64,000 nucleotides of DNA from positions 310,001 through 374,000 of the forward strand of contig JACQFZ010000022.1 in NCBI GenBank assembly GCA_016199745.1, given 5' to 3'. The position numbers and the translations under genes were made by a program. The stretch is from Gammaproteobacteria bacterium (lineage in GTDB: Bacteria; Pseudomonadota; Gammaproteobacteria; Acidiferrobacterales; Sulfurifustaceae). Of the stretch, positions 23,821 to 58,901 are shown piece after piece (the first letter of the stretch is position 1; every line of letters begins with the position of its first letter). The notes beneath the pieces are model-generated. The model saw only the letters and a program-made list of their open reading frames with translations, did no database searches and had not been told where the DNA came from.

Positions 23821-25923
23821 TTGGCAAAAGTCACGAAGACCTTTCAATACGGCAACCACACCGTTCGCCTTGAAACCGGCGAGATCGCGCGTCAAGCAGA
23901 CGGCGCGGTGCTGGCATCCATGGGCGACACCGTGGTACTCGCGACTGCAGTCGTGGCGCGAAACCCAAAACCCGGTCAGGATTTCTTTCCGCTGACCGTC
24001 GATTACCAAGAACGTACGTACGCCGCCGGCCGCATCCCCGGTGGCTTCTTCAAGCGTGAAGGGCGACCGTCGGAGAAAGAAATTCTCACCTGCCGCCTGA
24101 TCGACCGCCCCATCCGTCCGCTGTTCCCCGATGCCTTCGTCAACGAAATTCAGATTATCGTTACCGTGAAGTCGATGGATCCGGAAATCGATCCGGATAT
24201 CGTCGCGCTGCTCGGCGCCTCGGCCGCGTTGTCGCTATCCGGTGCGCCGTTCCAAGGCCCGATCGGCGCCGCCCGCGTCGGTTATCGAGACGGTCAGTAT
24301 TTGCTGAACCCGAGCAACACCGATCTCAAAACCTCGCAACTCGATTTAGTGGTTGCCGGCACCGATAAAGCGGTGTTGATGGTCGAGTCGGAAGCGAAGG
24401 AATTGTCGGAAGAAGTGATGCTCGGCGCCGTCGTATTCGGCCACGAGCAAGCGCGTGCCGCCATCAAGGCGATCAACGAGCTCGTCAAAGAAGTCGGTGT
24501 GACGCCGATCGCCTGGCAGGCGCCGGTGGAAGATGCGGCGTTGTACCAAGTGGTCGCTGCCGCCGCTGAAGCCGATATCACCGCGGCCTATCAGATTGCC
24601 GAAAAAGGCGCGCGCCAAGATCGTTTGGCGGAAGTGCGCAAAGCGGTAGTGACGAAGCTTGCCGACGCCACCGATCCCGATCGCGAAGATAAAGTTAGCG
24701 TGATCATCGAGACCCTCGAGCGCAAGACCGTGCGCGGTCGCATCCTCGGTGGCCAACCGCGTATCGACGGGCGCGACACACGCACCGTGCGCCCGGTCGT
24801 CATCCGTACCGGCCTGTTGCCGCGTACCCATGGCAGCGCGTTGTTCACCCGCGGCGAGACCCAGGCGATCGTCACCACGACCCTCGGCACCGGCCGCGAT
24901 GCGCAGATCATCGATGCGCTCGAAGGCGAGCGCAAAGAACCGTTCATGATGCATTACAACTTCCCGCCGTTCTCGGTCGGTGAAACCGGCCGCGTCGGCA
25001 GCCCGAAGCGGCGCGAGATCGGCCACGGCCGCCTCGCCAAGCGTGGCGTCGCCGCCGTATTGCCGGACATGGCGAATTATCCGTACGTCATCCGCGTCGT
25101 CTCCGAGATCACCGAGTCGAACGGCTCGAGCTCGATGGCGTCAGTGTGCGGCGCGAGCCTCGCACTGATGGACGCCGGGGTGCCGATTTCGGCGCCGGTC
25201 GCCGGTGTCGCGATGGGTCTCATCAAAGAAGAGAACCGCTTCGCGGTACTCACCGACATCCTCGGCGACGAAGATCACCTCGGCGACATGGATTTCAAAG
25301 TGGCTGGTACGTCGAAGGGCGTGACAGCGCTGCAGATGGACATCAAGATCGAAGGCATCAACCGCGACATCATGGATGCGGCGCTGAAGCAGGCGCGTGA
25401 AGGTCGGATGCACATCCTCGACATCATGAGCCAGGCGATCTCCACCCCACGTGCCGAGCTCTCCGAGTTCGCCCCGCGCATCATCACCATCAAGATCAAT
25501 CCGGAACGCATCCGCGACGTCATCGGTAAGGGTGGTTCGACCATCCGCGCGCTGTGCGAAGAAACCGGCACGACGATCGACATCGAAGACGACGGTACGG
25601 TCAAGATTGCCTCGGCCGACAAACTGGCGAGCGAAGAAGCGCGCCGGCGGGTACAGCAGCTGACCGCTGACGTTGAAGTCGGCATGATTTACGAAGGCAA
25701 GGTAGCGAAGCTCATGGACTTCGGTGCGTTCGTGACGATTCTGCCGGGTAAAGACGGCTTGGTGCACATTTCGCAGATTTCGCATGAGCGCGTTGAGAAC
25801 GTCAGCGATAAGCTGCGCGAAGGCGAAGTTGTGAAAGTGAAGGTCCTCGAAGTCGACAAGCAGGGACGCATTCGTCTCAGCATGAAGGCGGTTAACGAGG
25901 TGGCTGCCACGACCACGACCTAA
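23821..25923 (+). CDS. pnp: Polyribonucleotide nucleotidyltransferase
   Basis: A 700-residue exoribonuclease that degrades RNA 3' to 5' by phosphorolysis and is part of the degradosome. Two RNase PH domains (first about residues 1-220, second about 310-550), then KH ([20 protein letters not shown]) and S1 ([20 protein letters not shown]) domains at the C-terminus are all present. The start codon is TTG at 23821, with AGAGGA upstream; no ATG is in frame nearby. Normal length. A strong terminator follows. Confidence 0.98.
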
Positions 25924-26022: not shown

Positions 26023-27708
26023 TCAGCGCAAAACGAAATAGAGATAGGCTAGCAACAACAGCAGCAGACTGATGCTGGCGGTCCATAACTGCCAATTAAT
26101 CGGCAAGTTAGACCGTTCGGGTTCGGTGGCTTTATTCTTGGCGATCGATTCGAGGGCATTGCGCGCGGCGATGAGCGCTGCCGCGAACTGAGACATGTTC
26201 GGATAACGATCCATTGGATCGTTAGCGCAAGCGCGTTGCAATACTTCATCGAGCATATTGGGCAGCCCGGCTTTGTAGTGACTGAGTGGTGTATATCCTT
26301 GTCTACCGACCTCTTCGCGCGCTCGAATTTTCCCGTACGGATATTCGGCGCTGATCATGCGATAAATCGTCACGCCGGCGGCATAAATGTCGCTGGCCTC
26401 GGTCGCCGGTGCGTCGCGGAACAATTCGGGCGCGCAATAACTCATGGCGCTGGTGGAAATCTCGACGGAATTTTCTTGCAGTGCATCGATTCGACTCGAG
26501 CCCAAGCCTAGTAGTCGTAGCTCGCGGTTGTTCTTGTCGTACAGCAAATTATTGGCGCGCACATCGCGGTGAACGACACCTTGTCGATGCAGAGCTTCGA
26601 GCGCCGATACGAGTTGCTCGCCCAGGCGCAGCGCCTCCAGCGGCGGAAGACCGCGTTTGCGGCGGACACGCTTGGCCAAATTCTCGCCTTCGTGGTACTC
26701 CATCACCGAGTAGAGTGCGGTGCGGCGTCCGGGACGAAGGCCGAGCGTTTTTACGACGAATGGACTATCGATACGTTTACCGATCCATTCTTCGCGCAAA
26801 AACGTTTGCACGCTGCGAGTGTCATCGTGATAGGAAGGGTTCGGGAAGCGCAGCACGACAATGCGACCCGATTCTCGATCTTGCGCTTTATAGAGCCGGA
26901 AGCGGCGACTCTTGTGCACGATCTCTTGAATCGTGAAGCCGTCGACATTGGCGTCGAGCGCCGGCGGATCGATCACCGGAAACGATCGGATGTCCTCGCG
27001 TCCGTCGTTTGCCGACTCCGGCGGTAGTCGTTCTATGCGCGCTACGCATACGCCGACATAGCCTTGAGCACGTCCGCTGATAGCGCGCTGTACCAGCGCT
27101 TCCGACATTTGCTGAGCGGTACTATCCGACTGCAACACGCCGACGATGACCGAACCCGACAGCGCTTCATGCAGGTCGGGGCTGGTAATCAGCAAGATGT
27201 CGCCTTGTGCGAGCTGGCCGGTTTGGTAGTCGGCCTCGAGGGTTGTCGCCAGGCCCAGGGCCTTGGTTATCTCCGCGCGCTGCGTCGGTCGCGGCAGCAG
27301 ATGATCGCGGCTCAATTGCTTGAGTTGCAGATCGCGATAGAGCCAGGCGCGAACGTTGCCGCAATTAGCCAACAGCCAACGTTGGCCATGTAGCACCAGC
27401 ACCGCGGCTGTCACGGCTCGTCCACGTTCACCGGCAGTGAGCAGTGCTTGATGTGCCGCATTCACGCTGTTCGTGAGTGCGTCCTGGAGCGATCCGCTGG
27501 TCGCTGCGTAATAAGTGTCACCGAGCGCGGTAATGGCCGTCTTCGCTGCCTGCTGCGGTTCCGGCCGGCCCGGCACCCCTTCGGCGCAAGCCAGCATCAC
27601 GCCATGACCGCCGTCGCGGCCCTCCGGCACGAGGACCATGCAGCTCCCCATAGATGCAGTTCGGCGTGCCGCCTGTTCGCAGTGGCCGATATCGAGAAAC
27701 AATGGCAT
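26023..27708 (-). CDS. PP2C phosphatase / protein kinase fusion with degraded catalytic motifs
   Basis: A 561-residue protein. Residues 1 to about 225 follow the PP2C fold and about 255-520 a Ser/Thr kinase fold, with one membrane helix at 541-560; this matches the bifunctional PP2C-kinase family. In the kinase part the usual ATP-site Lys is Arg (VVLRF, R287), the catalytic loop reads HRDVRANN (380-387), and the metal-binding DFG is GLG (401-403), while APE (CAPEL) and SDIYAAG are kept. In the PP2C part the metal-site Asp residues look lost: EG at 43-44, SPD at 176-178 and GY at 216-217, where DG, SDG and DN are expected. Both halves may be scaffold or sensor domains. It is convergent with pnp. 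Confidence 0.75.
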   Translation of the reverse strand: MPLFLDIGHCEQAARRTASMGSCMVLVPEGRDGGHGVMLACAEGVPGRPEPQQAAKTAITALGDTYYAATSGSLQDALTNSVNAAHQALLTAGERGRAVTAAVLVLHGQRWLLANCGNVRAWLYRDLQLKQLSRDHLLPRPTQRAEITKALGLATTLEADYQTGQLAQGDILLITSPDLHEALSGSVIVGVLQSDSTAQQMSEALVQRAISGRAQGYVGVCVARIERLPPESANDGREDIRSFPVIDPPALDANVDGFTIQEIVHKSRRFRLYKAQDRESGRIVVLRFPNPSYHDDTRSVQTFLREEWIGKRIDSPFVVKTLGLRPGRRTALYSVMEYHEGENLAKRVRRKRGLPPLEALRLGEQLVSALEALHRQGVVHRDVRANNLLYDKNNRELRLLGLGSSRIDALQENSVEISTSAMSYCAPELFRDAPATEASDIYAAGVTIYRMISAEYPYGKIRAREEVGRQGYTPLSHYKAGLPNMLDEVLQRACANDPMDRYPNMSQFAAALIAARNALESIAKNKATEPERSNLPINWQLWTASISLLLLLLAYLYFVLR

Positions 27709-27768: not shown

Positions 27769-28054
27769 TCAGAGACTGACGCCAGTCAGTGCCCGCAACG
27801 ACCAGCCGAACAGATAGGCGATCGCGGCAGCGGCAAAGCCGGCGCCGACAAGCTCGAGTACCTTGCGTTTTAGCGAAATTCCGGAAAGCGCCGACACGAC
27901 CACGCCGGTGGTTGTTAGGGCAATACCGGCGAGCACGATCGAGCCAATGAGCGCTGTCCAGGCACCGCCGGCGATGAAGTACGGCAGCACCGGAAACGCC
28001 GCGCCGAGTGGTATGGCATCAGTACTCGTTCCACCGAGAGAGATAGGTAGGAAT
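27769..28054 (-). pseudogene. Remnant of a VIT/CCC1-family iron-manganese transporter
   Basis: Read from just after the mtnC stop codon, the same frame gives about 95 codons (SLGGTSTDAIPLGAAFPVLPYF, then ...LVGAGFAAAAIAYLFGWSL) ending at 27769. These are the last two or three membrane segments of the VIT1/CCC1 family, which has about 230 residues. The N-terminal membrane part and any normal start are missing; the first usable start (GTG at about 27990) would code only 73 residues. It looks like a truncated remnant. A small intact protein cannot be fully excluded. Confidence 0.6.
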
Positions 28055-28056
28055 CC

Positions 28057-42851: not shown

Positions 42852-43022
42852 ACGGAGAGACGGATACAAGGCACATGCGACACGGCAGACGGCGCGACAC
42901 GTGCATTGCGAGGCATGGTATTCACGGCCATGATCTAAGCATTGCCGTGCCCGCCAGTTGTGCTGATCGCGACGAGTGCGAGAATATCCGCCCCCTTTTT
43001 GCCGTTGCCGAGTGACACGCCG

Positions 43023-43766
43023 TTGGAAAAACAAGCGGGCGAGTTAACCCTGCCAATCTCGGCCTGGTCCGCCTGGGCGCCGGGATTGGAGTCGGCAGTA
43101 GCCTGGCGTTCTTGGGCTGTTGGCGAGCTCTCTCCTGGTGCTGAAGGTTCCCCGTCGTTGAGCTTTGTCGAGCCGATGCTGCGCCGGCGGCTCGGGCGTA
43201 CCGCACGTATGGCGTTGCATGTCGCCGAGGAGTGCACCCGCGGTCGTGAATCGGTGCGGACGGTGTTCGCTTCGCGTCACGGTGAGCTGCATCGCACGGT
43301 CCGCATGTTGCGTGAGCTGAGCAGCGGCAACGAGCCGTCGCCGACCGATTTTTCGTTGTCGGTACACAATGCCGCTGCCGGCATTTATTCGATTACGCGG
43401 CGCGATCATTCGCCCAGTATCGCCGTCAGTGCCAGTGAAGAGAGCTTTGGCTACGGCCTGATCGAGGCAGCGACGCAGTGGCTACGCGATCCGAGCCAAG
43501 CGGTATTGTTGGTTTATGCCGACGAGCCGGTGCCGACTGAGTATCGTACGTTCGTCGATACCGAAGAGTGTCCGCATGCGTTAGCGTTGTTGCTGGCGCC
43601 TACGTCCGATTCACCGCAAGCGGTCGTGCGTTTGCGCCGTATGTCGTCAACCGGAGAGCGTTCGCCTGAGATGCAATCGCTGGCGTTCCTGCGTTCGTGG
43701 GCGCTGAAGGTCGCGCAGGCGAGCTGGAGCGGCGACCGTTGTCGTTGGGAGTGGGGCGTCGCGTGA
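43023..43766 (+). CDS. Beta-ketoacyl synthase-like chain-length-factor protein of aryl polyene cluster
   Basis: About 247 residues if TTG at 43023 starts it; a longer frame from TTG 42942 is possible, and no good ribosome binding site decides. LPISAWSAWAPGLES, SLSVHNAAAGIYSI and ASEESFGYGLIEA mark the KS-N-like domain (PF13723 type) known from aryl polyene loci, where it is called a ketosynthase chain-length factor. There is no Cys in the HNAAAGIYS site, so it should not be a condensing enzyme by itself. It heads the cluster; the acyltransferase start overlaps its end. Confidence 0.75.
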   Translation: MEKQAGELTLPISAWSAWAPGLESAVAWRSWAVGELSPGAEGSPSLSFVEPMLRRRLGRTARMALHVAEECTRGRESVRTVFASRHGELHRTVRMLRELSSGNEPSPTDFSLSVHNAAAGIYSITRRDHSPSIAVSASEESFGYGLIEAATQWLRDPSQAVLLVYADEPVPTEYRTFVDTEECPHALALLLAPTSDSPQAVVRLRRMSSTGERSPEMQSLAFLRSWALKVAQASWSGDRCRWEWGVA

Positions 43767-44632
43767 AGTTTCTGGTCTATTTTTGGCGGTTGAGTGTACT
43801 AGCGTTCTGTTTTGCCTGTTTTGGCATCGGTGGTTTTTTAATGCGGTTCACGCTGTTGCCGGTGATCCGCTGGACGCCCGGTAGCGAGCGCGAATGCCAT
43901 CTGCGCGCCCGCCGGCTGATCCACAGCATCTTCGCCTCCTTGGTGGCGTTGCTGCGCGTGACCGGAGTCATGCGCTTGACCGGCGACAACATCGAGGCAT
44001 TGCGGGATAGCCGCCAAAAGCTGGTATTGGCCAACCACCCGTCCTATTTGGACGTGGTAATCCTGCTGGCGGCCATGCCCGAGGCGGAATGCGTGGTAAA
44101 GCAGGGCCTGTGGAATAGCTGGTATTTCGGCGGTGTGGTGCGGGCGGTCGGCTATATTAGTAATGCGGATTCCGATCGATTGGTGGATGACTGTGCCGCC
44201 GCCCTAGCCAAGGGCAGCCCAATGCTGATCTTTCCCGAAGGGACCCGCACGGTCCATGGCCAGTCGTTACAGTTTCAGCGGGGCGCGGCCCGGATTGCGT
44301 TGCGGAGCGGGGCAGAGATCCTGCCGGTGATTATTAGCTGTGACCCGCCGGTTTGGGGTAAGGGATTTAGCTTGTGGGCTATTGCCAAGCAGCAATTCCA
44401 TATTAATTTTGAGGTAAAATCGCCGCTTCGCTTACAAGATCTGGGATGGCAGGGAGAGCCGGAAACCCTAGCGGCGCGGCGGTTGACGAAGCGTCTTGAA
44501 GCCTATTTTACATCTGCCATAGAGAGCCATGACCGACCTGCACCTGGAAATCAAGCGAATGATCATCGAGGCGTTGAATCTGGAGGACCTAACGCCGGAG
44601 GACATCGACAACGACGCACCGTTATTCGGTAG
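43763..44632 (+). CDS. Lysophospholipid acyltransferase-like protein (PlsC family) of APE cluster
   Basis: A 289-residue acyltransferase with a GTG start at 43763 overlapping the previous stop by four bases. One N-terminal membrane segment precedes the NHPSYLDVVIL motif (NHxxxxD), then FPEGTRTVHGQS (motif III, FPEGTR) and VIISCDPPVWG. It should add an acyl or polyene chain to a lipid or glycan acceptor. The C-terminal tail runs 104 bases into the first acyl carrier protein gene, far more than the four-base overlaps elsewhere; the last 35 residues or so may be an unusual extension or result from a frame error. Confidence 0.85.
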   Translation: MKFLVYFWRLSVLAFCFACFGIGGFLMRFTLLPVIRWTPGSERECHLRARRLIHSIFASLVALLRVTGVMRLTGDNIEALRDSRQKLVLANHPSYLDVVILLAAMPEAECVVKQGLWNSWYFGGVVRAVGYISNADSDRLVDDCAAALAKGSPMLIFPEGTRTVHGQSLQFQRGAARIALRSGAEILPVIISCDPPVWGKGFSLWAIAKQQFHINFEVKSPLRLQDLGWQGEPETLAARRLTKRLEAYFTSAIESHDRPAPGNQANDHRGVESGGPNAGGHRQRRTVIR

Positions 44633-44798
44633 CGACGGTCTCGGTCTCGATTCGATCGACGCACTCGAGCTGGGCGTTGCCCTACGCAAGAAGTACCGGA
44701 TCACGCTGGAAGCCGAAGATCCGCGCATTAAGACGTATTTTCGGTCCGTCAGCACGCTGGCGCAGTTGTTGCAGGAACGTAGCACTGCCTCGTCATGA
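44529..44798 (+). CDS. Acyl carrier protein 1 of APE cluster
   Basis: An 89-residue acyl carrier protein with the phosphopantetheine site Ser in GLGLDSIDALELGV and the expected four-helix pattern. It begins inside the acyltransferase gene and ends by ATGA overlap with the second carrier. It would carry the growing polyene or the aryl starter. Two carriers are usual in aryl polyene clusters. Confidence 0.92.
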   Translation: MTDLHLEIKRMIIEALNLEDLTPEDIDNDAPLFGSDGLGLDSIDALELGVALRKKYRITLEAEDPRIKTYFRSVSTLAQLLQERSTASS

Positions 44799-45076
44799 CG
44801 AACGCCCAAGCCAAAGGTGCAACGATGTTGCTGAACGACGACCAGATTTATGCCCAGCTGAAAACTATCTTGATGGATTCGTTCGAGATCGAAGAAAGCC
44901 AGATCTCGCCACAAGCGAATCTGTTTCAGGATCTCGACCTCGATAGCATCGACGGTGTCGACCTTGCGATCAAACTGCAAGAGCTAACCGGCAAGCGTAT
45001 CAAGCCCGAAGAGTTCAAGAGCGTGCGCACCGTCGGTGACGTCATTGTCACTGTGCAGCGTCTCATGACTAGTTGA
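44795..45076 (+). CDS. Acyl carrier protein 2 of APE cluster
   Basis: A 93-residue acyl carrier protein with the modified Ser in DLDLDSIDGVDLAIKL and a C-terminal VRTVGDVIVTVQRL helix. The start overlaps the previous stop; ATG at 44825 is an alternative without the first ten residues. Both carriers would be activated by the phosphopantetheinyl transferase at 60181. Confidence 0.92.
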   Translation: MTNAQAKGATMLLNDDQIYAQLKTILMDSFEIEESQISPQANLFQDLDLDSIDGVDLAIKLQELTGKRIKPEEFKSVRTVGDVIVTVQRLMTS

Positions 45077-45091
45077 CCGCAGGTTAAGACG

Positions 45092-45661
45092 ATGGCCTGG
45101 TCCGCGGCGGTACGCGCCGCGTCGTTGGTTCTCTACCCGCTGGCTGTCTACTTTGCCCTCGAGTACGTAGAAGTCCGCTATCTCGGTATCGCGTTGCTGG
45201 TGGTGCTGTTGTTGCGCCATCGGCGGCAAGCGCGCACGTTCATGGCCGGCTTGGAATGGGCTGGACCGGCGTTGATCAGCATCGTCGGCGTATTCGCGGC
45301 ATTGGTTTGGTGGACGAATAACGAGCTGTTGCTGCGGCTTTATCCGGCGTTGCTCAACGCCGTTACGCTCTCATTATTTGCCTTCACGATATATCGCCCA
45401 CCGAGCATGATCGAACGGTTCGCGCGTCTCGAGCAACCGGAGTTGCCGCCGGATGGAGTGCGTTACACCAAGCGCCTAACGTGGGTGTGGTGTGGTTTTT
45501 TAACTGCCAACGGTTCGATCGCGGTTTACACGGCGTTGTTCATGTCGCGCGAAGCATGGGCGCTATATAACGGCCTGATCGCTTATATATTGATGGGCGC
45601 CTTGTTATTGGGTGAGCGTGTATTTCGTCGTTATTGGTTGGCGCGCGGGAACACGTCGTGA
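45092..45661 (+). CDS. COG4648-type membrane protein of APE cluster
   Basis: A 189-residue protein with five or so hydrophobic segments (ASLVLYPLAVYFALEYVEVR, LGIALLVVLLL, ALISIVGVFAALVWW, and two near the end around RLTWVWCGFLTANGSIAVYT). It matches the small membrane protein that follows the carriers in aryl polyene clusters. Its function is unknown; it may help position the product at the inner membrane. It overlaps the next gene by GTGA. Confidence 0.75.
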   Translation: MAWSAAVRAASLVLYPLAVYFALEYVEVRYLGIALLVVLLLRHRRQARTFMAGLEWAGPALISIVGVFAALVWWTNNELLLRLYPALLNAVTLSLFAFTIYRPPSMIERFARLEQPELPPDGVRYTKRLTWVWCGFLTANGSIAVYTALFMSREAWALYNGLIAYILMGALLLGERVFRRYWLARGNTS

Positions 45662-47028
45662 CGTCGTTGTTGCAATTGTTCGTCGGTACCCGACCGGATT
45701 CGCAGCCACTGGCATATCGCGGCGCGGCGGTACTGTCGTGGCAAGATTTTCGCGCGCGCGTTGCCGGCGTGGCAGCGCAGTTGTCGAACCGGCCGGAAAC
45801 GAGTTGGGCACTGTGCAGCGACGACGCCTATCATTTCATATGCGGTTTCTTCGGCGCTGTATTGAGCGGCAAGCGCGTCGTTATCCCGCCCAACTTTCAG
45901 CCGGGCACACTCGCGTCGCTAACTAACGACGCGCAAGGTTGGATCGTCGATCGCCGCGACCACCCGTGTCCTGCGGGTGCGCGTGTCGTCGTCGGTGAAA
46001 TGTCGACGTCATTGGCGACCGGCGTTATCGCTGGCGATGCTGCGATCGATCTCTATACCTCCGGTACCACCGGCACGCCGAAACGCATTCGCAAAAATTT
46101 GCTGCAGCTCGCCGCCGAGATCGACGTGTTGGAACAAGTTTGGGGCGAGACATTGGCAACGTCGACTGTCGTCGGCACGGTGCCGCATCACCATATATAT
46201 GGTTTGTTGTTTCGTTTGCTGTGGCCGCTCGCGGCTGGCCGGCCGTTCGATGTGATGGCTTGCAGCGGTCCGGATGAGTTGCTGCCGCGACTGCGCCAGT
46301 TCGGTCGGGCGGTGATCGTGTCGAGCCCAGCGCAACTGAGTCGCTTGCCGGAGTTGATGGATCTAACAATGTTGGCAGCGCACGCGCGTTTGGTATTTTC
46401 CTCCGGCGGTCCGTTGTCGCCGAAGACGGCGCAGATCTACCGCGGCGCCATCGGTTGCGCGCCGACCGAGGTTTACGGCAGCAGCGAAACCGGCGGTATC
46501 GGTTGGCGGATACAGACCGACGACAACGATGGTGATGCGTGGACGCCGTTGCCGCGTGTCGCCGTGCGCCGCGGCGACGACGGTGCGTTGCACGTGCGTT
46601 CACCGTTCGCGGGCGCTGACGCCGAGCTCGCTACGGCCGACGCTGTCGATAGGTTGGCCGACGGCCGCTTTCGCTTGCGCGGACGCTTGGATCGAGTCGT
46701 CAAAATCGAAGAGAAGCGGTTGTCGTTGACCGAGATGGAAGAGCGTCTGCGTGGCCACCCGTGGGTACGCGACGCCGGCGTTGTACCGGTCGACGGCGCT
46801 CGTCGTCTGCTCGGCGCCGTGGTCGCATTGACGGCCGAAGGCCGGGAACGGCTGGTACACGCGGGAAAGCGGACGACCAGCGGCGAGCTTAAGCAATTTC
46901 TTGGTCAATACTATGAATTGCCACTGTTACCGCGGCGTTGGCGCTTTCCCGAGGTTATGCCGCTTAATGAGCGTGGCAAGGTATCATCCGCGCTCCTTTT
47001 GGCCCTGCTGGCCCAAACCGAACCGTGA
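45658..47028 (+). CDS. AMP-dependent acyl/aryl ligase of APE cluster
   Basis: A 456-residue ANL-superfamily enzyme with GTG start at 45658. The ATP-site motif LYTSGTTGTPKRIRKN is intact, followed by VYGSSETGGIGWR and the hinge region RLRGRLDRVVKIEEKRLSLTEM. It should activate the aryl starter acid as an adenylate and load it on a carrier protein. The product of the ammonia-lyase in this cluster is the natural candidate substrate. Slightly shorter than free-standing acyl-CoA ligases, as in other APE loci. Confidence 0.9.
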   Translation: MTSLLQLFVGTRPDSQPLAYRGAAVLSWQDFRARVAGVAAQLSNRPETSWALCSDDAYHFICGFFGAVLSGKRVVIPPNFQPGTLASLTNDAQGWIVDRRDHPCPAGARVVVGEMSTSLATGVIAGDAAIDLYTSGTTGTPKRIRKNLLQLAAEIDVLEQVWGETLATSTVVGTVPHHHIYGLLFRLLWPLAAGRPFDVMACSGPDELLPRLRQFGRAVIVSSPAQLSRLPELMDLTMLAAHARLVFSSGGPLSPKTAQIYRGAIGCAPTEVYGSSETGGIGWRIQTDDNDGDAWTPLPRVAVRRGDDGALHVRSPFAGADAELATADAVDRLADGRFRLRGRLDRVVKIEEKRLSLTEMEERLRGHPWVRDAGVVPVDGARRLLGAVVALTAEGRERLVHAGKRTTSGELKQFLGQYYELPLLPRRWRFPEVMPLNERGKVSSALLLALLAQTEP

Positions 47029-47390
47029 ACAAGAACAACCCGCTGCTAGCACCACAAATCCTGCACGAGACGCGCGCTGACGCGGCGGTTCGGCTGCGCC
47101 TGCGGTTGACGCCGGATCTCGAATTCTTCGCCGGTCATTTTCCGGACTGGCCGATCCTGCCGGGCGTGGTGCAAGTCCATTGGGCGATCGCGCTCGGGCA
47201 ACGGTACTTGGGTGTGACCGGTGTATTTCGCGGCTTGGACAATCTGAAGTTCCATCGCGTCACGCCACCCGAGACCGAACTCGATCTCGATCTGCAGTAT
47301 CACGTCGAACGTAATTTGCTGGCGTTCGCTTATGGCAACGACGGCGGCAAATATTCTTCCGGCCGTATCGTCTTCGGCACACCCCCATGA
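47025..47390 (+). CDS. apeI: ApeI-type 3-hydroxyacyl-ACP dehydratase
   Basis: A 121-residue hot-dog fold protein starting at a GTG that overlaps the ligase stop. FFAGHFPDWPILPGVVQVHWAI has the FabZ/FabA-like GHFP..PxLPGV catalytic signature with His. It removes water from the 3-hydroxyacyl chain each cycle, giving the conjugated double bonds. It overlaps the next gene by ATGA. Confidence 0.85.
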   Translation: MNKNNPLLAPQILHETRADAAVRLRLRLTPDLEFFAGHFPDWPILPGVVQVHWAIALGQRYLGVTGVFRGLDNLKFHRVTPPETELDLDLQYHVERNLLAFAYGNDGGKYSSGRIVFGTPP

Positions 47391-49096
47391 CTTTCCGCCC
47401 TTGCATCGTCATCCCGGTCTATAACCACAAAGACGCGATCGGTCCGACGGTTGCGGCATTGCGGCTTCATGGGTTGACGATATATCTGATCAACGATGGC
47501 AGCGATGAACCGACGCGTGCGCGATTGATCGAAATTGCCGCCAGTGAACCGTTAGTGCGACTACTGCATCTGGCGGAAAACGGTGGCAAAGGCGCGGCCG
47601 TGATCCGCGGTTTGCGGCAAGCGCTGGCCGACGGCTTCACGCACGCGTTGCAGATCGATGCCGATGGTCAGCACGACACCAACGATGTGCCCAAGTTTCT
47701 CGCCGAAGGGACGACCGACCCGACCGCGGTCGTCTGCGGCCAACCGATCTACGACGAGTCGGTGCCGAAGGCGCGATTGTATGGACGTTATCTGACGCAT
47801 TTTTGGGTTTGGGTCGAAACCCTGTCGTTCGCCATCAAAGATTCGATGTGTGGTTTCCGTCTATATCCGTTGGCGCGCACGTGGGAGGTCGTCGACAACG
47901 CCGCCGTACCGACACGCATGGATTTCGACATCGTCATCATCGTCCGCTTGGCGTGGGCCGGTATGCCGGTGGTCAATGTGCCGACGCGCGTGCGTTATCC
48001 GTTGGACGGCGTCTCGCATTTCGATATGTGGCGCGACAATCTGCGCATCTCCGGCGCGCATACGCGTTTGGTCGGCGGCATGTTGTTGCGTTTGCCGATG
48101 TTGCTGGCGCGCAACTTCAAACGCTCGGCGAAGTCGTCGCATTGGTGGCGCACGTCCGAGCGCGGCAGTTATCTCGGCATCTTGATCGTCTTCTTTACCT
48201 TTCGATTGCTCGGCCGGCGGGTCGCGCGCTGGCTGCTATTTCCCATCGTCGGTTACTTCTTCGTCACCGGCGGTCGCGCCCGGCGCGCGTCAGCGCTTTA
48301 CTTGCAGCGGCTCTATGCGCACACCGGTCCGACGCCGGCGTTGCCGGCGCCGCCGACTTGGCGCGACAGTTGGCGGCATATGTTCGCTTTCGCCGAATCG
48401 AATCTGGACAAGCTAGCCGCCTGGCTCGGCCGTATCGATCTGACGCAAGTGGATTTCCCCGATCGCGCACAGCTCGACGCGATTATCGCCAGCAAGCGCG
48501 GTGCATTGTTGGTCGGTTCGCACGTCGGCAGCTTGGAATTCCTGCGTGCCTTGGCGCTCTACAGCGGGATCCGTTCGCTCAATGTGCTGACGCATATCGA
48601 GAACGCAGCGCGGTTCAATCGTATGTTAGAAAACTCGAACGATGCGTTTCGGCTCAACTTGATTCCGATCGCCAAGGTCGGACCCGACACCGCCGTGTTG
48701 TTGCACGAGCGGCTCGATCGCGGCGAATTGTTGGTCATCGCCGGCGATCGTACGCCGCCTGGCAGCCGCTCGGTGAAGGCATCGTTCCTCGGGCACGAAG
48801 CGGCGTTCGCGCAGGGCCCGTTGGTGTTGGCGGCGGTGCTGGGTTGTCCGGTGTACTTGCTGTTCTGCCGGCGCGAAGGCGCACGCTACCGCATTTCTTT
48901 CGAGCCGCTGTGCGAGCGCCTGGAGTTACCGCGACGCGGACGCGAAGAAGTGCTGCGGGGTTATGTCCAGCGTTACGCCCAGCGGATCGAATACCACTGC
49001 GCACAATCGCCGTACGAGTGGTTCAATTTTTACGATTTCTGGGGCGAAGCCGTCGATACCGCGGCACCCGAGAAAAGAGGAGTGGCGTTGCCATGA
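47387..49096 (+). CDS. Glycosyltransferase 2 / LpxL-type acyltransferase fusion of APE cluster
   Basis: A 569-residue fusion. Residues about 1-240 are a GT2 domain of dolichol-phosphate mannose synthase type (CIVIPVYNHKDAIGPTV, HALQIDADGQHDTNDV, DSMCGFRLYPL). Residues about 285-569 are an LpxL/HtrB-type acyltransferase with GSHVGSLEFLRAL (HX4E), then GDRTPPGSRSVKASFLGHEA. This fusion is standard in aryl polyene clusters and probably joins the polyene to a sugar-lipid anchor. It overlaps the previous and next genes by four bases. Confidence 0.9.
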   Translation: MTFRPCIVIPVYNHKDAIGPTVAALRLHGLTIYLINDGSDEPTRARLIEIAASEPLVRLLHLAENGGKGAAVIRGLRQALADGFTHALQIDADGQHDTNDVPKFLAEGTTDPTAVVCGQPIYDESVPKARLYGRYLTHFWVWVETLSFAIKDSMCGFRLYPLARTWEVVDNAAVPTRMDFDIVIIVRLAWAGMPVVNVPTRVRYPLDGVSHFDMWRDNLRISGAHTRLVGGMLLRLPMLLARNFKRSAKSSHWWRTSERGSYLGILIVFFTFRLLGRRVARWLLFPIVGYFFVTGGRARRASALYLQRLYAHTGPTPALPAPPTWRDSWRHMFAFAESNLDKLAAWLGRIDLTQVDFPDRAQLDAIIASKRGALLVGSHVGSLEFLRALALYSGIRSLNVLTHIENAARFNRMLENSNDAFRLNLIPIAKVGPDTAVLLHERLDRGELLVIAGDRTPPGSRSVKASFLGHEAAFAQGPLVLAAVLGCPVYLLFCRREGARYRISFEPLCERLELPRRGREEVLRGYVQRYAQRIEYHCAQSPYEWFNFYDFWGEAVDTAAPEKRGVALP

Positions 49097-50691
49097 GTAC
49101 GATGAGATCCAAGCCCAGCGCGTCCGATTCGGTGAGCGCGAAACCTGCCGCCGAGCAGCAACCGATATCGATCGGCGGTCGCGCGCTTACGATTGAAGAC
49201 GTGATCGCGATCGCCCGGCGCCGGTGCAGCGTCGCTTTGAGTCGCGAGCCGGCGTTCGTCGAACGCATCCGCCATAGCGCTGCGTTTCTCGATGAAGTGC
49301 TCGCAAGCGGCGGCACGGTCTACGGCGTTAATACCGGCTACGGCGATTCGTGCTCAGTCGAGATCCCGCGACATTTGGTGGCTGAGCTACCGCATCACCT
49401 GGTGCGTTATCACGGTTGCGGCCTCGGCGCTTATCTCGACGAGGAGTCGGCGCTGGCAGTGTTGGCGGCGCGCTTGAACTCGTTGTCGCAAGGTTACTCC
49501 GGCGTGCGCTGGGTGTTGCTCGAACGGTTGGCGCAACTCATCAATGATCGCATCCTGCCGCGCATCCCGTGCGAAGGTTCGGTCGGCGCCAGCGGCGATC
49601 TGACGCCGTTGTCATACGTCGCGGCAACACTGATCGGTGAACGCGAGGTCATCCACGGTGGCCGCGTGCGGCCGGCGGCGCAGGTGTGGGCCGAGCGCGG
49701 CGTGACGCCACTGACACTGGCGCCAAAAGAAGGTTTAGCAATCATGAACGGCACGGCCGTCATGACGGCGTTGGCCTGTCTGGCGTGGGATCGGGCGCAA
49801 TATCTGACGCGCTTGAGTGCGCGGCTGACGTCATTGGCGGCGCTCGGAATGCGTGGCAATCGCGATCATTTTCATCCGAAATTATTTGCTGCTAAACCGC
49901 ATCGCGGGCAAGCGGAGATTGCGGAATGGATCTATGCCGATATGGCGGTCACCGGCCCGAACGGCAACGGCGCGCGCTTGCAGGATCGCTATTCGATCCG
50001 CTGTGCGCCGCACGTGATCGGCGTGTTACGCGACGCGTTGCCGTGGATGCGGCGCGATCTCGAAAACGAACTGAACAGCGCTAACGACAATCCGCTGGTC
50101 GATGCCGACGAGCGCTTGGTGTTGCACGGTGGCCATTTCTACGGGGGCCATATCGCTTTCGTCATGGACGCGATGAAGACGGCGGTGGCGAGCGTCGCCG
50201 ATTTGATGGATCGGCAGATGGCGTTGCTGGTCGACGGCAAATTCAATCACGGCTTGCCGCAGAATTTGTCCGGCGCATCGCCCGAGCGCGCGCCGATCAA
50301 TCACGGCTTCAAAGCAGTACAGATCTCGGTGTCGGCGTGGACTGCCGAGGCGCTGAAACTGACGATGCCGGCGACCGCGTTCTCGCGTTCGACCGAATCG
50401 CACAATCAAGACAAGGTCAGCATGGGTACGATCGCCGCGCGCGATTGCTTGCGCGTGCTCGAGCTGACCGAACAAGTGGCGGCGGCGATGATGCTGGCGA
50501 CCTACCAAGGCATTTTGCTGCGCGAGCGCCAAGGCGAGCTCAACCGTAGCGCGCTGACGCCGGAGGTGCGTAGTTTCCTCGAAGGTACGCGACTGCATTT
50601 CGAGTTCCTTGAAGAAGATCGCCGGCTCGACGAAACGCTGTTGTTCTTCGTCGAAGCGATTCGTGCACAGGCGTGGTCGCTGTATCCGTAA
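49093..50691 (+). CDS. Aromatic amino acid ammonia-lyase (HAL/PAL/TAL family)
   Basis: A 532-residue MIO-dependent lyase. The Ala-Ser-Gly that cyclises to the MIO group is at 166-168 (SVGASGDLTPLSYVAA). YGVNTGYGDS near residue 75 carries the catalytic Tyr, and QNLSGASPERAPINHG, FSRSTESHNQDKVSMG are kept. The selectivity loop is LPHHLVRYHGCGLG, whose Tyr-His pair differs from the His-Leu of characterised tyrosine lyases and the Ser-His of histidine lyases. It should release ammonia from Phe or Tyr to give cinnamate or coumarate, the probable starter of the polyene. Confidence 0.88.
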   Translation: MSTMRSKPSASDSVSAKPAAEQQPISIGGRALTIEDVIAIARRRCSVALSREPAFVERIRHSAAFLDEVLASGGTVYGVNTGYGDSCSVEIPRHLVAELPHHLVRYHGCGLGAYLDEESALAVLAARLNSLSQGYSGVRWVLLERLAQLINDRILPRIPCEGSVGASGDLTPLSYVAATLIGEREVIHGGRVRPAAQVWAERGVTPLTLAPKEGLAIMNGTAVMTALACLAWDRAQYLTRLSARLTSLAALGMRGNRDHFHPKLFAAKPHRGQAEIAEWIYADMAVTGPNGNGARLQDRYSIRCAPHVIGVLRDALPWMRRDLENELNSANDNPLVDADERLVLHGGHFYGGHIAFVMDAMKTAVASVADLMDRQMALLVDGKFNHGLPQNLSGASPERAPINHGFKAVQISVSAWTAEALKLTMPATAFSRSTESHNQDKVSMGTIAARDCLRVLELTEQVAAAMMLATYQGILLRERQGELNRSALTPEVRSFLEGTRLHFEFLEEDRRLDETLLFFVEAIRAQAWSLYP

Positions 50692-50726
50692 TATTTTATG
50701 GTGATACCGATGTTGATTAAACGTCC

Positions 50727-50827
50727 CCCTCTCCCCTTGCGGGAGAGGGGACAGGGGAGAGGGGGCATCGTCGGCAACCTCTATGACTCCCCCTCTCCCT
50801 CGTTCCCTCTCCCGCAAGGGGAGAGGG
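50727..50827. repeat. Large near-perfect palindrome in the APE cluster
   Basis: A left arm at 50727-50765 (starting CCCTCTCCCCTTGCGGGAGA) and right arm at 50788-50827 pair almost throughout, with a loop of about 22 bases. It lies between the ammonia-lyase and thioesterase genes and belongs to the same broad CCCTCTCC/GGAGAGGG family as the elements at 18029 and 21978. It is the only real gap inside the cluster. Confidence 0.8.
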
Positions 50828-50851
50828 AAGCTCTTCGTTGAGCGGTCTGCT

Positions 50852-51283
50852 GTGGCGTCAAAACCGAAACAATCCCAGTTGCGAGCCGAGGTTGAAATCG
50901 AGGTGCCGTTCCACGACGTCGATCCGATGGAAGTGGTGTGGCACGGTCACTATGCCAAGTATTGCGAGCACGCGCGTACGCGATTGTTGCAAATGTTGGA
51001 TTACGACTACCCACAAATGCGCGCCTCCGGCTTTCTCTGGCCGGTGGTTCACTATCAGCTGAAGTTCGTGCGACCGGCGCGATACGGCCAGCGTCTGCAA
51101 GCACAAGCGTGGTTACTGGAATACGAATACCGACTGAAAATCGGTTATGAGATCAACGACGCCGCGACCGGCGAGCGTTTGACCAAGGGCTACACCGTGC
51201 AAGTGGCGGTGGCGATATCGACCGGCGAGATGCAATACGCCTCGCCGAATATATTAGTGGAATGCGTGGAGCGGTGTCGATGA
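50852..51283 (+). CDS. Thioesterase, 4-hydroxybenzoyl-CoA thioesterase type
   Basis: About 143 residues with GTG at 50852; a longer frame runs back into the palindrome and is not believed. VPFHDVDPMEVVWHGHYAKYCEHAR is the YbgC/4HBT signature with catalytic Asp (DVDP). GYEINDAATGERLTKGYTVQV follows. In aryl polyene clusters it may free the finished chain or clear stalled carriers. The end overlaps the LolA-like gene by ATGA. Confidence 0.85.
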   Translation: MASKPKQSQLRAEVEIEVPFHDVDPMEVVWHGHYAKYCEHARTRLLQMLDYDYPQMRASGFLWPVVHYQLKFVRPARYGQRLQAQAWLLEYEYRLKIGYEINDAATGERLTKGYTVQVAVAISTGEMQYASPNILVECVERCR

Positions 51284-51885
51284 AACGGATTATTGGATTT
51301 GTTGTTGCCTTGTTGTTATTGCCGCTGCCGGTGCGTAGTGACGACGCGTCGTTCAAAAAAATTGCCACCGGCTTGAGCCAAGCGGCGGTATTGCGCGCGC
51401 AGTTCACCCAGACCAAAACCATTCCGGCGTTGACGCGGCCGATTACGACCTCCGGCCGATTCGTCTATGGGCGCGGTCAAGGCGTCTTGTGGACGGTCGA
51501 GCAGCCTTATCAGGCGCGTTACGCGCTCGACGAGAACGGTGTCAGCGAGGTCGGTCCGAGCGGCACACGTCTGCGCGCCGCGTCGCAGCCGGGTATGCAG
51601 CATGTCGGTCGAGTGTTGCGCGCATTGCTCGAGCCGGACATCGCCGCGCTCGAACAGTATTTCACGGCCAGCACCAGCGGTGCCGCCAATCGCTGGGAAT
51701 TATTGCTGACGCCGAAGACGGCGTTGCGCCAGGCGTTCAAGACCGTGCGCTTACGCGGCGGGCGCTTTGTCGAAGAGGTGTTGCTCGACGAGGCCAATGG
51801 TGACACGACGCTAATCCGCTTCCGGCAAACGCAAGAGGCAACGTCGCTCGACGCTGCCGAGCGACGTGCACTGGCGCGCGAATGA
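51280..51885 (+). CDS. LolA-like outer-membrane carrier protein of APE cluster
   Basis: A 201-residue periplasmic protein with a signal peptide (IGFVVALLLLPLPVRS). ATG at 51280 overlaps the thioesterase stop; a start 18 bases earlier is less likely. AAVLRAQFTQTKTIPALTRP and SGRFVYGRGQGVLWTVEQPY are the beginning of the LolA fold. It would chaperone the hydrophobic product or its lipid across the periplasm, working with the RND-type exporter encoded next. Confidence 0.85.
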   Translation: MKRIIGFVVALLLLPLPVRSDDASFKKIATGLSQAAVLRAQFTQTKTIPALTRPITTSGRFVYGRGQGVLWTVEQPYQARYALDENGVSEVGPSGTRLRAASQPGMQHVGRVLRALLEPDIAALEQYFTASTSGAANRWELLLTPKTALRQAFKTVRLRGGRFVEEVLLDEANGDTTLIRFRQTQEATSLDAAERRALARE

Positions 51886-54236
51886 TCCGTGTCCGCGCGG
51901 TCGGCGCCGCGCTGTTACTGTTGGCGGTCGTGGCCATGCTTGCTGCGTGGTTCAGTGAGCATGCGCCGGCCATCAAAGTGCAGACTAATCTGTTGGCGCT
52001 ATTGCCCAACACCGGTCGCAGTCCGGCGGTCGAGCGCGCGGCGTCGAAGCTGGAAGATCAATGGACCCGCCGGCTGGTTTTTCTTATCGGCCATGCCTCG
52101 CCGGCAACGGCGCAGCAGAATGCGCGTAAATTCGCACAAGCGCTGACAACCAACAACGACATCGTCGGTGATGTTCATTATCAATTTCCTACCCCTGATT
52201 TGGCGATGCTGCGAGAGGCCTATCGGCCGTATCGCTTTCAGTTGTTGACCGAAGCGGATCGCGGCATTGCCGGCGATCCACGGCAATTCGTGCAGCAGCG
52301 TTTACAGCAGCGGCTTTACGATCCGTTTCGCGCCGGTTTCGGTACGCCGCTGCAGCAGGATCCGCTCGGATTATTCGATGGTTACTTGGCGTCATTGCCG
52401 TTGCTGCGCGCCAATAGCACGCTCGAATTTACCGACGGTTGGCTGCTGGCGCATGACAGCGATCGCACATTTGTGGTGCTGTCGGCCGCGATCAATGCCT
52501 CGCCGCACGACTCCGCGGCGCAACAACGATTGCAGGTGGTGTTTAACGGCGCCTACGGTGCGCTCGATCGCGATGTGACGGTACTGCGCACCGGCGCGGC
52601 GTTTTATGCCATCGCCGCGCGCGAAAGTGCCGAGCGCGAGCTGCATTTGATCGGCATCGGCTCGCTCGTCGGTATCGCCTTGATGTTGTATCTGGTGTTT
52701 CGCTCGTTCCGGCCGATTCTGTTCGGGTTGTTGTCGGTGGCGATCGGCATCGGTGCGGCGATCGTCGTTACCGTGCTCGTCTTCGGCGAAGTGCATCTAA
52801 TTACGCTGGTGTTCGGTGCCAGCTTGCTCGGCGAAGCGGTCGACTATGCGATCCAATATTATGCGGCGCGCCTGGATGCGGGTCCGAGCTGGGACGCGCG
52901 CCGTGGGTTGCGGGCAGTGTTGCCCGGCATCAGCATCGCCGTTATCACCAGCGTGCTCGGCTACGGCGCATTGGCGCTGGCGCCGTTTCCCGGATTGCGC
53001 CAGATCGCATTGTTTTCCATCGTCGGTTTGGTAACGGCGTACGTTGTCGTCGTATTGTTGCTGCCATGGGTAACACGGGCGCCGGCACGGCGGCGGCCGC
53101 AAGCGTTGTTACAAGCGGCCGAACGTACCTTGGCCGGCGTCGAACGTTACGCGTCGGCGCGGGTGCGCTGGTTAGTGATAATCGCTATCGTTGCCATTTC
53201 GTTGCCGGGTTGGTGGCAGCTGACGAGCGACGACAACGTGCGCTTACTGATCAATCCGCCGAAGCAGTTGGCCGACGAGGAAGTAGCGGTGCGTCGTCTG
53301 ACCGGCCTCGATCAGGGCGGACAGTTCTTTCTGGTCGAAGGGCGCGACCCGCAACAGCTATTGGAACGGGAAGAAGCGTTGACCCCGCGGCTGCGCGAGC
53401 TCGAAGGCCGCGGCTTGTTGACGCAGCACCAGGCGGTCAGCGACTTCGTGCCATCACGCAAACATCAGCAGCAGAATTACGTTTGGTACGGGGCGCAGGT
53501 ATTCGCACCGACCGCCGAACTCACGCGCGTGCTGGCGACGCAAGGTTTTCGTGCCGACGTGGCCCAGCGTTACGGCGCCGACTACCGACAGTCGGCGACA
53601 CAACGCTTGGAGCCGGCGGCTTGGCTTGCTTGGCCGGGCACGGTGCCATGGCGTCACCTATGGTTAGGGGAGGACGTCGACGGTTACGCATCGGTCGTGA
53701 CGCTGTCCGGCTTCAAGTCGGTCGCCGTGTTGGAACCGGCGGCGCAAGATTTACCCGGTGTCACACTCGTCAACAAGGCTGGCGACGTATCCAAATTATT
53801 CCGTAAGTATCGTGAGCTCGGTAGCGGTGCATTGGCGATCGCCATTCTGTTGATATTCGCTGTGCTTATTTGGCGTTATCGGTTGCGCGCCGCCGCGCAT
53901 ACGTTGTTGCCGACGTTGTCCGCGTTGGTCGCAACCGTTGCGTATTGCGGCTATCGGCACACGCCGTTGACGCTGTTCAACATCATGGCGCTGTTGCTGG
54001 TGCTCGGTGTCGGCGTGAATTACACGATATTCCTACGCGAGGGTATCGGTCGCCGCGGTGCGGTGTTGCTCGGTGTACTGTTATCGGCCGCGACCACGTT
54101 GTTGTCGTTCGGGCTGCTCGGTTGGAGCTCGACGCCGGCGCTGAGTCAGTTCGGTTCGACCTTGTTCGTCGGGATCGTCGTGACGGTGCTGTTGGCGCCG
54201 CTCCTCGGTATAAGCGTTCGCCAGGAAAGTCGATGA
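51882..54236 (+). CDS. MMPL/RND-type exporter of APE cluster
   Basis: A 784-residue inner-membrane protein with two large periplasmic domains and two bundles of five or six helices, the MMPL layout. The first bundle begins at LIGIGSLVGIALMLYLVFR and includes VFGASLLGEAVDYAIQYYAA; the second starts near LAIAILLIFAVLIWRY and includes LLLVLGVGVNYTIFLREG. The duplicated GxxxDY/GxxY helices are proton-relay-like. It probably loads product onto the LolA-like protein. It overlaps both neighbours by four bases. Confidence 0.9.
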   Translation: MIRVRAVGAALLLLAVVAMLAAWFSEHAPAIKVQTNLLALLPNTGRSPAVERAASKLEDQWTRRLVFLIGHASPATAQQNARKFAQALTTNNDIVGDVHYQFPTPDLAMLREAYRPYRFQLLTEADRGIAGDPRQFVQQRLQQRLYDPFRAGFGTPLQQDPLGLFDGYLASLPLLRANSTLEFTDGWLLAHDSDRTFVVLSAAINASPHDSAAQQRLQVVFNGAYGALDRDVTVLRTGAAFYAIAARESAERELHLIGIGSLVGIALMLYLVFRSFRPILFGLLSVAIGIGAAIVVTVLVFGEVHLITLVFGASLLGEAVDYAIQYYAARLDAGPSWDARRGLRAVLPGISIAVITSVLGYGALALAPFPGLRQIALFSIVGLVTAYVVVVLLLPWVTRAPARRRPQALLQAAERTLAGVERYASARVRWLVIIAIVAISLPGWWQLTSDDNVRLLINPPKQLADEEVAVRRLTGLDQGGQFFLVEGRDPQQLLEREEALTPRLRELEGRGLLTQHQAVSDFVPSRKHQQQNYVWYGAQVFAPTAELTRVLATQGFRADVAQRYGADYRQSATQRLEPAAWLAWPGTVPWRHLWLGEDVDGYASVVTLSGFKSVAVLEPAAQDLPGVTLVNKAGDVSKLFRKYRELGSGALAIAILLIFAVLIWRYRLRAAAHTLLPTLSALVATVAYCGYRHTPLTLFNIMALLLVLGVGVNYTIFLREGIGRRGAVLLGVLLSAATTLLSFGLLGWSSTPALSQFGSTLFVGIVVTVLLAPLLGISVRQESR

Positions 54237-54781
54237 AAAAAATTTGGCTCGTTGTCCCGTTATTCGCGTTGTTGGGTTGCGCCGGTGTGCGCCCGCTCGA
54301 TGCGTGTACTTCGCTCGGTGCCGCCGGTTATTGCTTGCAAGCCAATGGTCCGACGTTAGCGGCCGCGCAATCGGTTGAGTTATCGTCGGCCGACAGCAAG
54401 GCGCGCTTTATCGTGCACTTGGAAACCGACGCGAACGGGATGCGCATGGTGGGGCTGACGCCGCTCGGTCAGCGTGTCTGGTTGATCCGTTTCGATTACG
54501 CCGGTAAAGAAATTTCCGCCGACATGCCCGCCGGCGGTGGTGTCGATGCACGGCAAATTTTGGCCGGCTTGCAGTTGGCGCTGTGGCCGTTACCGCAGGC
54601 GCGCGCTGGGCTGCAGGGAGCGAACGCGCAGTTGCGCGAAACCGATGGCATGCGTCAGCTGCTCGCTGGCGATGCCGTCGTTTTCAGCGCGAGTTGCGAC
54701 GGCCAGCGCCCCACATGTCGTCGTGCGCGTTTGCGTTACCTGGATTTGGGTTACGAGCTCGCCATCGAGACATTGGATTAG
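54233..54781 (+). CDS. DUF3261-type lipoprotein of APE cluster
   Basis: A 182-residue lipoprotein with a clear signal and lipobox (LFALLGCAGV, Cys near residue 15). The body has SADSKARFIVHLETD and GMRMVGLTPLGQRVWLIRFDY, typical of the LolB-like DUF3261 family found in aryl polyene clusters. It would be the outer-membrane receiver for the LolA-like carrier. It overlaps the exporter gene by four bases. Confidence 0.85.
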   Translation: MKKIWLVVPLFALLGCAGVRPLDACTSLGAAGYCLQANGPTLAAAQSVELSSADSKARFIVHLETDANGMRMVGLTPLGQRVWLIRFDYAGKEISADMPAGGGVDARQILAGLQLALWPLPQARAGLQGANAQLRETDGMRQLLAGDAVVFSASCDGQRPTCRRARLRYLDLGYELAIETLD

Positions 54782-54789
54782 TGCACGCT

Positions 54790-55986: not shown

Positions 55987-56447
55987 CGCAAGAGTTGCTT
56001 CCTCCCATTGAACAATTGCTGCTGCATCGCGGCGCCATGCTGCTGGTCGACCGCGTCACTGTCGCCGACGGCGATCGCTTGTCGGTCGAAACGACGGTGC
56101 GATCGACGATGTGGTATGCCGACGCCGACGGTAATATGCCGGCCTGGGTTGGCATCGAATTGATGGCGCAAGCCATCGCCGCTTATTTTGGTTTATGGCA
56201 ATTGCGCCACGGCCTGCCGATCAAAATCGGTTTTCTACTCGGTACCCGCAAGTACGTTTGCAGCGTGCCGGTGTTTACCGGCGGTGCGGTGCTCGACATA
56301 ACGGCCGACATGCAGTATCGCGAACCGAACGGTCTCGGTGCGTTCGATTGTTACATCGATAACCGCGGCGAGCGCTTGGCGACGGCGATGATCAAAGTGT
56401 ACGAACCGGAAGACATCAAGAAGTTTATGGAAGAGACACCATCGTGA
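55983..56447 (+). CDS. apeP: ApeP-type 3-hydroxyacyl-ACP dehydratase
   Basis: A 154-residue hot-dog protein with GTG start. LLLHRGAMLLVDRVTVADGD and NMPAWVGIELMAQAIAAYFGL match the ApeP/FabA-like dehydratase of aryl polyene clusters. With ApeI it forms the dehydration step. It overlaps the reductase gene by four bases. Confidence 0.88.
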   Translation: MTQELLPPIEQLLLHRGAMLLVDRVTVADGDRLSVETTVRSTMWYADADGNMPAWVGIELMAQAIAAYFGLWQLRHGLPIKIGFLLGTRKYVCSVPVFTGGAVLDITADMQYREPNGLGAFDCYIDNRGERLATAMIKVYEPEDIKKFMEETPS

Positions 56448-58393: not shown

Positions 58394-58431
58394 GAGTGGG
58401 TTGAACTATTAACAATAGAGGAGTTTTTGCT

Positions 58432-58857
58432 ATGCGTCCGATAAAAGCGTTTGCCATTTTTGCGTTCGTTGCCTTGACCTTGTCGTCGACAGCGGCCTTT
58501 GCCACGCGCGCGGTTGAGATTGAAGACCGCGAGGTGCCTATCGTCAGTGTTTCCGATAAGGCGCTGACGCAAGCTGCAGTAAAGAAGGCCATCATGATCG
58601 GTGCCCAAACACACAGCTGGCAAATAAAGAAGGACGCGCCAGGCAAGATACAGCTGCACCTTGACTATAAGGGACGGGAGCAATTGACCGTTGATGTCGC
58701 CTACGATACGAAGAAATATGTCATCAAGTATGTCGACAGCGAACTCTTGAAATACAAGGACCACGGCGACGGTCGCCGTACGATCAGCGGACACTACGCG
58801 CGTTGGGTACAAAATCTCGTCACGGCGATCAATGCCGAGCTTTTGCGGCAGCAGTAA
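58432..58857 (+). CDS. Unrecognised 141-residue exported protein inside APE cluster
   Basis: A 141-residue protein with a signal peptide (IKAFAIFAFVALTLSSTAAFA) and a small compact domain. HSWQIKKDAPGKIQLHLDYKG and HYARWVQNLVTAINAELLRQ look like a small alpha/beta fold seen as conserved hypothetical proteins. It has a GAGGAG site before its ATG. I do not recognise a named family. It stands between two ketosynthase genes, so it may serve polyene export or assembly, but that is inferred from place only. Confidence 0.65.
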   Translation: MRPIKAFAIFAFVALTLSSTAAFATRAVEIEDREVPIVSVSDKALTQAAVKKAIMIGAQTHSWQIKKDAPGKIQLHLDYKGREQLTVDVAYDTKKYVIKYVDSELLKYKDHGDGRRTISGHYARWVQNLVTAINAELLRQQ

Positions 58858-58901
58858 TCTTCCTGCGGAACCGCGCGGCGATACCGTGATAAACCGGGTT
58901 T

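Follow-up and report, generated by a model that had tools for sequence, protein, structure and literature searches.

The window analysed here, a stretch of 64,000 nucleotides from a gammaproteobacterium of the family Sulfurifustaceae, carries on its minus strand a gene that encodes a PP2C-like phosphatase domain fused to a protein-kinase-like domain (Table 1). The residues on which catalysis normally depends are substituted in both domains, and the same kind of loss is shared by a clade of related proteins. We consider that the gene is probably a maintained double pseudoenzyme.

Catalytic residues of the two domains

The reading frame is open end to end (ATG to stop, 561 codons), which rules out a frameshift or premature stop and agrees with the original prediction, made from the letters of this DNA. 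A short linker joins the PP2C-like domain (about residues 1-228) to the kinase-like domain (about 257-515), and a hydrophobic segment follows at the C terminus. This order of parts in one frame is the architecture of active PP2C–kinase fusions. A Pfam search of the protein identifies Pkinase at residues 273-466 (E 2.7e-30). The Pfam PP2C score is 18.5 bits, just short of the gathering score of 20.3, and a wider family profile of this half matches solved bacterial PP2Cs at 1e-35. A similar C-terminal hydrophobic segment occurs in 13 of the 14 other relatives measured; the protein L004 is cut off ahead of it. Direct codon read-out recovered all residues that had been named in the original prediction, including R287 (CGC), as well as the APE motif (426-428) and the C-terminal segment (542-560, a candidate helix) that it described as remaining.

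As a reference, we used 49 intact relatives from the same class. The catalytic positions are kept in all 49, except that the loop Lys is Arg in three and the DN pair is DD in two. Together with a mapping onto solved PP2Cs, this alignment bears out the original impression that both halves look catalytically dead.

None of the five metal-binding Asp residues of the PP2C half is kept in the window protein, versus five of five in every intact relative. The positions were assigned by alignment to the relatives and to solved PP2Cs (the DG, GD, SDG and DN motifs of 2j82). The previously listed EG, SPD and GY substitutions are correct, but that list was incomplete, because the "NED" Asp (now G21) and the "GD" Asp (now N118) are lost as well. 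The Asp within SPD (D178) was considered as a substitute metal ligand and rejected, since the nearest relatives, L002 and L003, do not conserve it. Given its homology to PP2C, the absence of the metal ligands and the lack of any conserved substitute, this half is, as judged by alignment, a pseudophosphatase.

In the kinase half, only the HRD Asp of the triad of Lys, HRD Asp and DFG Asp is kept (K287R, D401G). The conserved GT pair ahead of APE (G420, T421) is also lost, and the glycine loop is missing, with HKSRRF at the expected place. The loss of the DFG Asp was correctly regarded as abnormal, as this residue is present in 49 of 49 intact relatives. However, the Arg that follows the loop Asp had been thought normal for the family, and this is wrong: the position is Lys in 46 of the 49 intact members and Arg in nine of nine core degenerate members (see below). 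D408, located after GLG, was rejected as a substitute Asp because the nearest relatives do not conserve it; overall, the alignment reveals no conserved alternative Asp or Lys in either the metal or the ATP site. A pseudokinase is defined by a kinase fold in which at least one of the VAIK Lys, HRD Asp and DFG Asp is absent, and the predicted fold and the residue losses place this half in that category.

The losses are concentrated at catalytic positions. Among the 51 columns that are at least 95% conserved in the intact relatives, the window protein has lost 8 of 11 catalytic columns versus 9 of 40 others (Fisher p = 0.003), so the losses are more than chance. L002 and L003 show the same excess. 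Sequencing error is an unlikely source, given that independent genomes share the losses, among them a genome assembled as one contig (G004).

The kinase fold is predicted to be intact despite the lost catalytic residues. A model of this half, built from an alignment with 18 relatives, has a predicted local distance difference test score (pLDDT) of 91.9 and a predicted template modelling score of 0.91. It superposes on Mycobacterium tuberculosis PknB over 256 residues (Z 32.8, root-mean-square deviation 1.6). A single-sequence AlphaFold model of the whole protein reached a pLDDT of 38 and was discarded.

Table 1. Features of the fusion gene and its convergent neighbour, in window coordinates
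Feature	Coordinates	Strand	Details
pnp-like gene, convergent neighbour (synteny marker)	23821..25923	plus	conserved in eight genomes
PP2C–protein kinase fusion gene	26023..27708	minus	uninterrupted ATG-to-stop frame (27708..26023), 561 aa
PP2C-like domain, residues 1-228	27025..27708	minus	five of five metal/active-site acidic residues substituted
Protein-kinase-like domain, residues 257-515	26164..26940	minus	Pfam match; predicted fold superposed on PknB
C-terminal hydrophobic segment 542-560, candidate membrane helix	26029..26085	minus	19 residues, Kyte-Doolittle mean 2.09
G21 replacing "NED" Asp	27646..27648	minus	family alignment, codon read-out
E43 replacing "DG" Asp (D34 of PP2C 2j82); EG = 43-44	27580..27582	minus	alignment, solved-PP2C mapping, codons
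N118 replacing "GD" Asp (D119 of 2j82)	27355..27357	minus	alignment, solved-PP2C mapping, codons
P177 replacing "SDG" Asp (D193 of 2j82); SPD = 176-178	27178..27180	minus	alignment, solved-PP2C mapping, codons
G216-Y217 replacing "DN" pair (D231 of 2j82)	27058..27063	minus	alignment, solved-PP2C mapping, codons
R287 replacing beta-3 (VAIK) Lys	26848..26850	minus	alignment, codon read-out
E306, alpha-C Glu kept	26791..26793	minus	alignment, codon read-out
HRDVRANN 380-387, catalytic loop (HRDxKxxN in family); D382 and N387 kept, R384 for Lys	26548..26571	minus	alignment, codons
GLG 401-403 replacing DFG (D[LF]G in family); G401 = lost metal-binding Asp	26500..26508	minus	alignment, codons
APE 426-428 kept	26425..26433	minus	codon read-out

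Order of loss and retention of the gene

Orthologs of the fusion, at 37-52% identity, occur in the family of the window's genome and in neighbouring families, and further relatives are found across the class. In a maximum-likelihood tree for which the active-site columns and those next to them were masked, all proteins without the DFG Asp fall into one clade of 14 that includes the window protein (support 99/98). The intact proteins L007, L074 and L075 adjoin this clade. On the masked tree, the DFG Asp changes once, at the base of the clade, and the Asp of the PP2C DG motif changes about four times, each time within it. L011 and L012 have a GFG kinase, yet keep all PP2C Asp residues, and L004 retains four of the five (its one change is D118N) despite its dead kinase. 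It is therefore most likely that the kinase was lost before the PP2C half. The surviving proteins form a series, from both halves intact (L007, L074, L075) through a dead kinase with an intact phosphatase (L011, L012) to both dead (the window protein, L002 and L003). As judged from this distribution, the losses run through a clade and are not those of one decayed gene.

Also inside the clade, on long branches and at uncertain positions, are the split L043 and a degenerate sister pair, in which L013 is joined by the split genes of L042. The PP2C and kinase halves are separate adjacent genes in both L042 and L043, meaning that the fusion was split there or was never joined.

Several observations indicate that the gene is maintained. 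Each of the 11 fused core orthologs has an uninterrupted frame of about 560 codons. The original prediction had proposed examining the ratio of nonsynonymous to synonymous substitution rates (dN/dS) in close relatives, and with the NG86 method this ratio is about 0.19-0.25 for the window protein against L002 and L003, where dS is saturated; the pair L011 and L012, which is not saturated, gives 0.086. It is well below 1 in both halves, which are alike wherever dS is computable, and third codon positions differ about twice as often as first and second positions. The nine core dead members have 78 invariant columns in common (including E306, R384, D391, K392, P427 and E428), and 31 of the 225 columns of the PP2C half are invariant among them. 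In eight genomes, the fusion gene lies tail-to-tail with pnp, and its opposite flank is mostly mtnC, mlaA, rimM or trmD. Because frames, dN/dS, synteny and invariant columns all point to maintenance, "pseudoenzyme" fits better than "pseudogene".

Some points weigh against a maintained double pseudoenzyme. The only further genome of the genus compared is at 52% identity, and with dS saturated at this distance the strength of selection on the window copy is rough. This copy also lacks the molybdoenzyme neighbours of some orthologs and has a decayed fragment of a VIT1 (vacuolar iron transporter) gene just upstream, so a very recent loss of function is possible. Finally, the HRD Asp and loop Asn remain, and by analogy with CASK, an animal kinase that transfers phosphate without a DFG Asp, an unusual activity is conceivable.

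Taken further, the second of these points would make the gene a pseudogene in progress, whose operon and function are gone and whose frame is merely still open. The stepwise loss of catalytic residues, the missing molybdoenzyme neighbours, the adjoining VIT1 remnant and the fast-evolving C-terminal tail are all compatible with decay. We nevertheless regard it as very unlikely, because decay does not account for 11 open frames at such low identity, for dN/dS well below 1 in both halves, for the 78 invariant columns or for the conserved position beside pnp.

The analogy with CASK leads to another alternative, in which the kinase half is an atypical active enzyme that performs phosphotransfer through the HRD Asp and loop Asn, and only the phosphatase half is dead. 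CASK, which lacks the DFG Asp as the window protein does, has cation-independent activity, demonstrating that nucleotide binding and even phosphotransfer can survive this loss (PMC4718504). Moreover, the nine core degenerate members mostly retain the relevant residues (HRD Asp in 8 of 9, loop Asn in 8 of 9, alpha-C Glu in 9 of 9 and beta-3 Lys in 7 of 9). However, CASK, a separate protein of animals, keeps its Gly-rich loop and Lys, unlike the window protein with its HKSRRF sequence and R287. The lost GT pair ahead of APE also argues against activity, as does L005, in which even the HRD Asp is gone (HGG). An active kinase half thus appears quite unlikely.

Known systems and possible function

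Kinase domains have been described in PP2C proteins before, mostly in Pseudomonadota (PMC12088040). The intact PP2C–Ser/Thr kinase fusions of this phylum (for example L033, L035 and L037) share with the window protein the domain order, length, linker and C-terminal membrane segment, and are homologous to it from end to end (26-35% identity). They keep every catalytic residue, and several are in narK/nirB nitrate loci, whereas the window member has lost both centres and lies beside pnp.

Bacterial pseudokinases have been classified into seven families (ActPs1-3, GLW, CP1, DYD and DLHK), none of which was described with PP2C (PMC12599244). Like the window protein, these families combine a Ser/Thr-kinase fold with degraded motifs. 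The DLHK member of Pseudomonas aeruginosa, with an HRD-LR loop and GFG for DFG, resembles the window protein, but DLHK proteins have no transmembrane region, so the C-terminal hydrophobic segment sets the window protein apart. GLW proteins have GLW in place of HRD, which the window protein keeps. ActPs2 proteins have Arg for the beta-3 Lys, as here, although the ActPs families are mainly actinobacterial (PMC12599244). A defining feature thus separates the window protein from DLHK and GLW; for ActPs1-3, CP1 and DYD the comparison is by description only.

Two precedents for a PP2C fold without catalysis are eukaryotic. TAB1 is a PP2C pseudophosphatase that works through binding rather than catalysis. 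PHLPP, another protein with this fold, has likewise been argued to act via binding (PMC13358185). Unlike the window protein, neither is fused to a kinase. A partial literature search found no report of a PP2C–kinase double pseudoenzyme or of a narK-linked kinase, and the only hit of a protein-pattern scan of the genome collection was a distant kinase encoded by a cyanobacterial metagenome-assembled genome.

The loss of metal-binding residues from both centres disfavours ordinary catalysis, and we infer that both activities are gone. By contrast, a binding function is favoured because both folds are conserved, together with the membrane tail and the residues of the nucleotide pocket, the DFG Asp excepted. 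In the most likely history, the ancestor was an active PP2C–Ser/Thr kinase anchored in the membrane, of the type found in nitrate-assimilation loci of the class. In the window's lineage, the kinase lost its metal-binding DFG Asp once, and the core members came to share Arg for the loop Lys. Deprived of the cis kinase that it would oppose, the fused phosphatase later lost its metal site independently in several branches. Selection still appears to keep both folds and the membrane tail. In the kinase half, it also keeps the HRD Asp, the loop Asn, the alpha-C Glu and a basic residue in beta-3. The resulting protein is most likely an adaptor at the membrane that binds a partner or former substrate via the surfaces of its two domains, and the pseudokinase pocket might bind nucleotide without metal as a conformational switch. 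We give this role, that of an adaptor tethered to the membrane and perhaps switched by nucleotide independently of metal, roughly even chances. The scaffold or ligand-sensor role suggested in the original prediction is likewise an inference.

A special case of such an adaptor is a decoy or substrate trap. Here, the dead PP2C half would bind phosphoproteins and shield them from an active phosphatase, with the kinase half serving only as an anchor. A different contig of the window's genome encodes an intact kinase and PP2C as a split pair, so phospho-substrates probably exist, and the invariant columns of the PP2C half suggest that its fold residues are conserved. A trap would, however, leave the kept pocket residues of the kinase half unexplained, and we think it unlikely.

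Hardly any experimental study has addressed bacterial pseudokinases. The surviving series of intact, half-dead and dead proteins makes the transition from enzyme to scaffold directly testable. It also bears on whether loss of the kinase frees a fused phosphatase from selection, and on whether nucleotide binding outlasts catalysis.

Gene neighbourhoods and ancestral role

In genomes of the same family, intact paralogs adjoin NarK-type transporters (248-250 bits, under the curated cut-off), and one, L069, is directly ahead of nirB. These paralogs and their NarK or nirB neighbours are located at L069:6421-12266, L070:6438-9596 and L071:7986-11229. A bifunctional kinase/phosphatase thus seems to be a recurrent component of nitrate-assimilation loci in the class. 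On the window's own branch (loci L055-L063 and L074), a molybdopterin oxidoreductase and a Fe4S4/DmsC-like fusion lie upstream, in the same orientation, of the intact L074 and of the degenerate members in G007, G009 and G018. The gene immediately ahead of L074 is DmsB-like. A MobA-like gene is beside the degenerate copies in G007, G008 and G009. Based on these neighbours, the ancestral role was probably in nitrate or molybdoenzyme control.

A more far-reaching proposal sees in the clade a novel type of regulator, in which a pseudophosphatase is fused to a pseudokinase whose pocket senses nucleotide without metal, the pair being a membrane switch taken over from nitrate or molybdoenzyme control. 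Under this proposal, coupled kinase–phosphatase fusions would as a rule lose the kinase once and the cis phosphatase repeatedly. We regard all of this as doubtful, though worth stating.

The window's genome has no close copy of the molybdopterin oxidoreductase (best 36%) and no clear NarK (best 49.9 bits), and we found no second PP2C–kinase fusion in it. A link between the loss of molybdoenzyme neighbours and PP2C decay is unsupported, because L009 and L010 keep these neighbours despite degraded PP2C sites.

The VIT1 remnant is a 95-codon stop-to-stop stretch (27772-28056, minus strand) between an mtnC-like gene and the fusion gene; it covers the last 80 VIT1 positions, without the N-terminal part. 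Near the same locus, G004 has a longer frame of 470 codons with a full VIT1 match (L055:3846-5255).

A set of three genes on contig C20 of the window's genome (L066:3594-6920) encodes a vWA-like protein, a PP2C-like protein and a kinase-like protein, the last of which is very divergent and has a hydrophobic segment at its C terminus. Elsewhere in the window (42942-60171), we noticed by eye a ketosynthase-like run with ammonia-lyase-like and acyl-CoA ligase-like genes, a glycosyltransferase/acyltransferase fusion and an MMPL-type exporter, which resemble a cluster of the aryl-polyene type.
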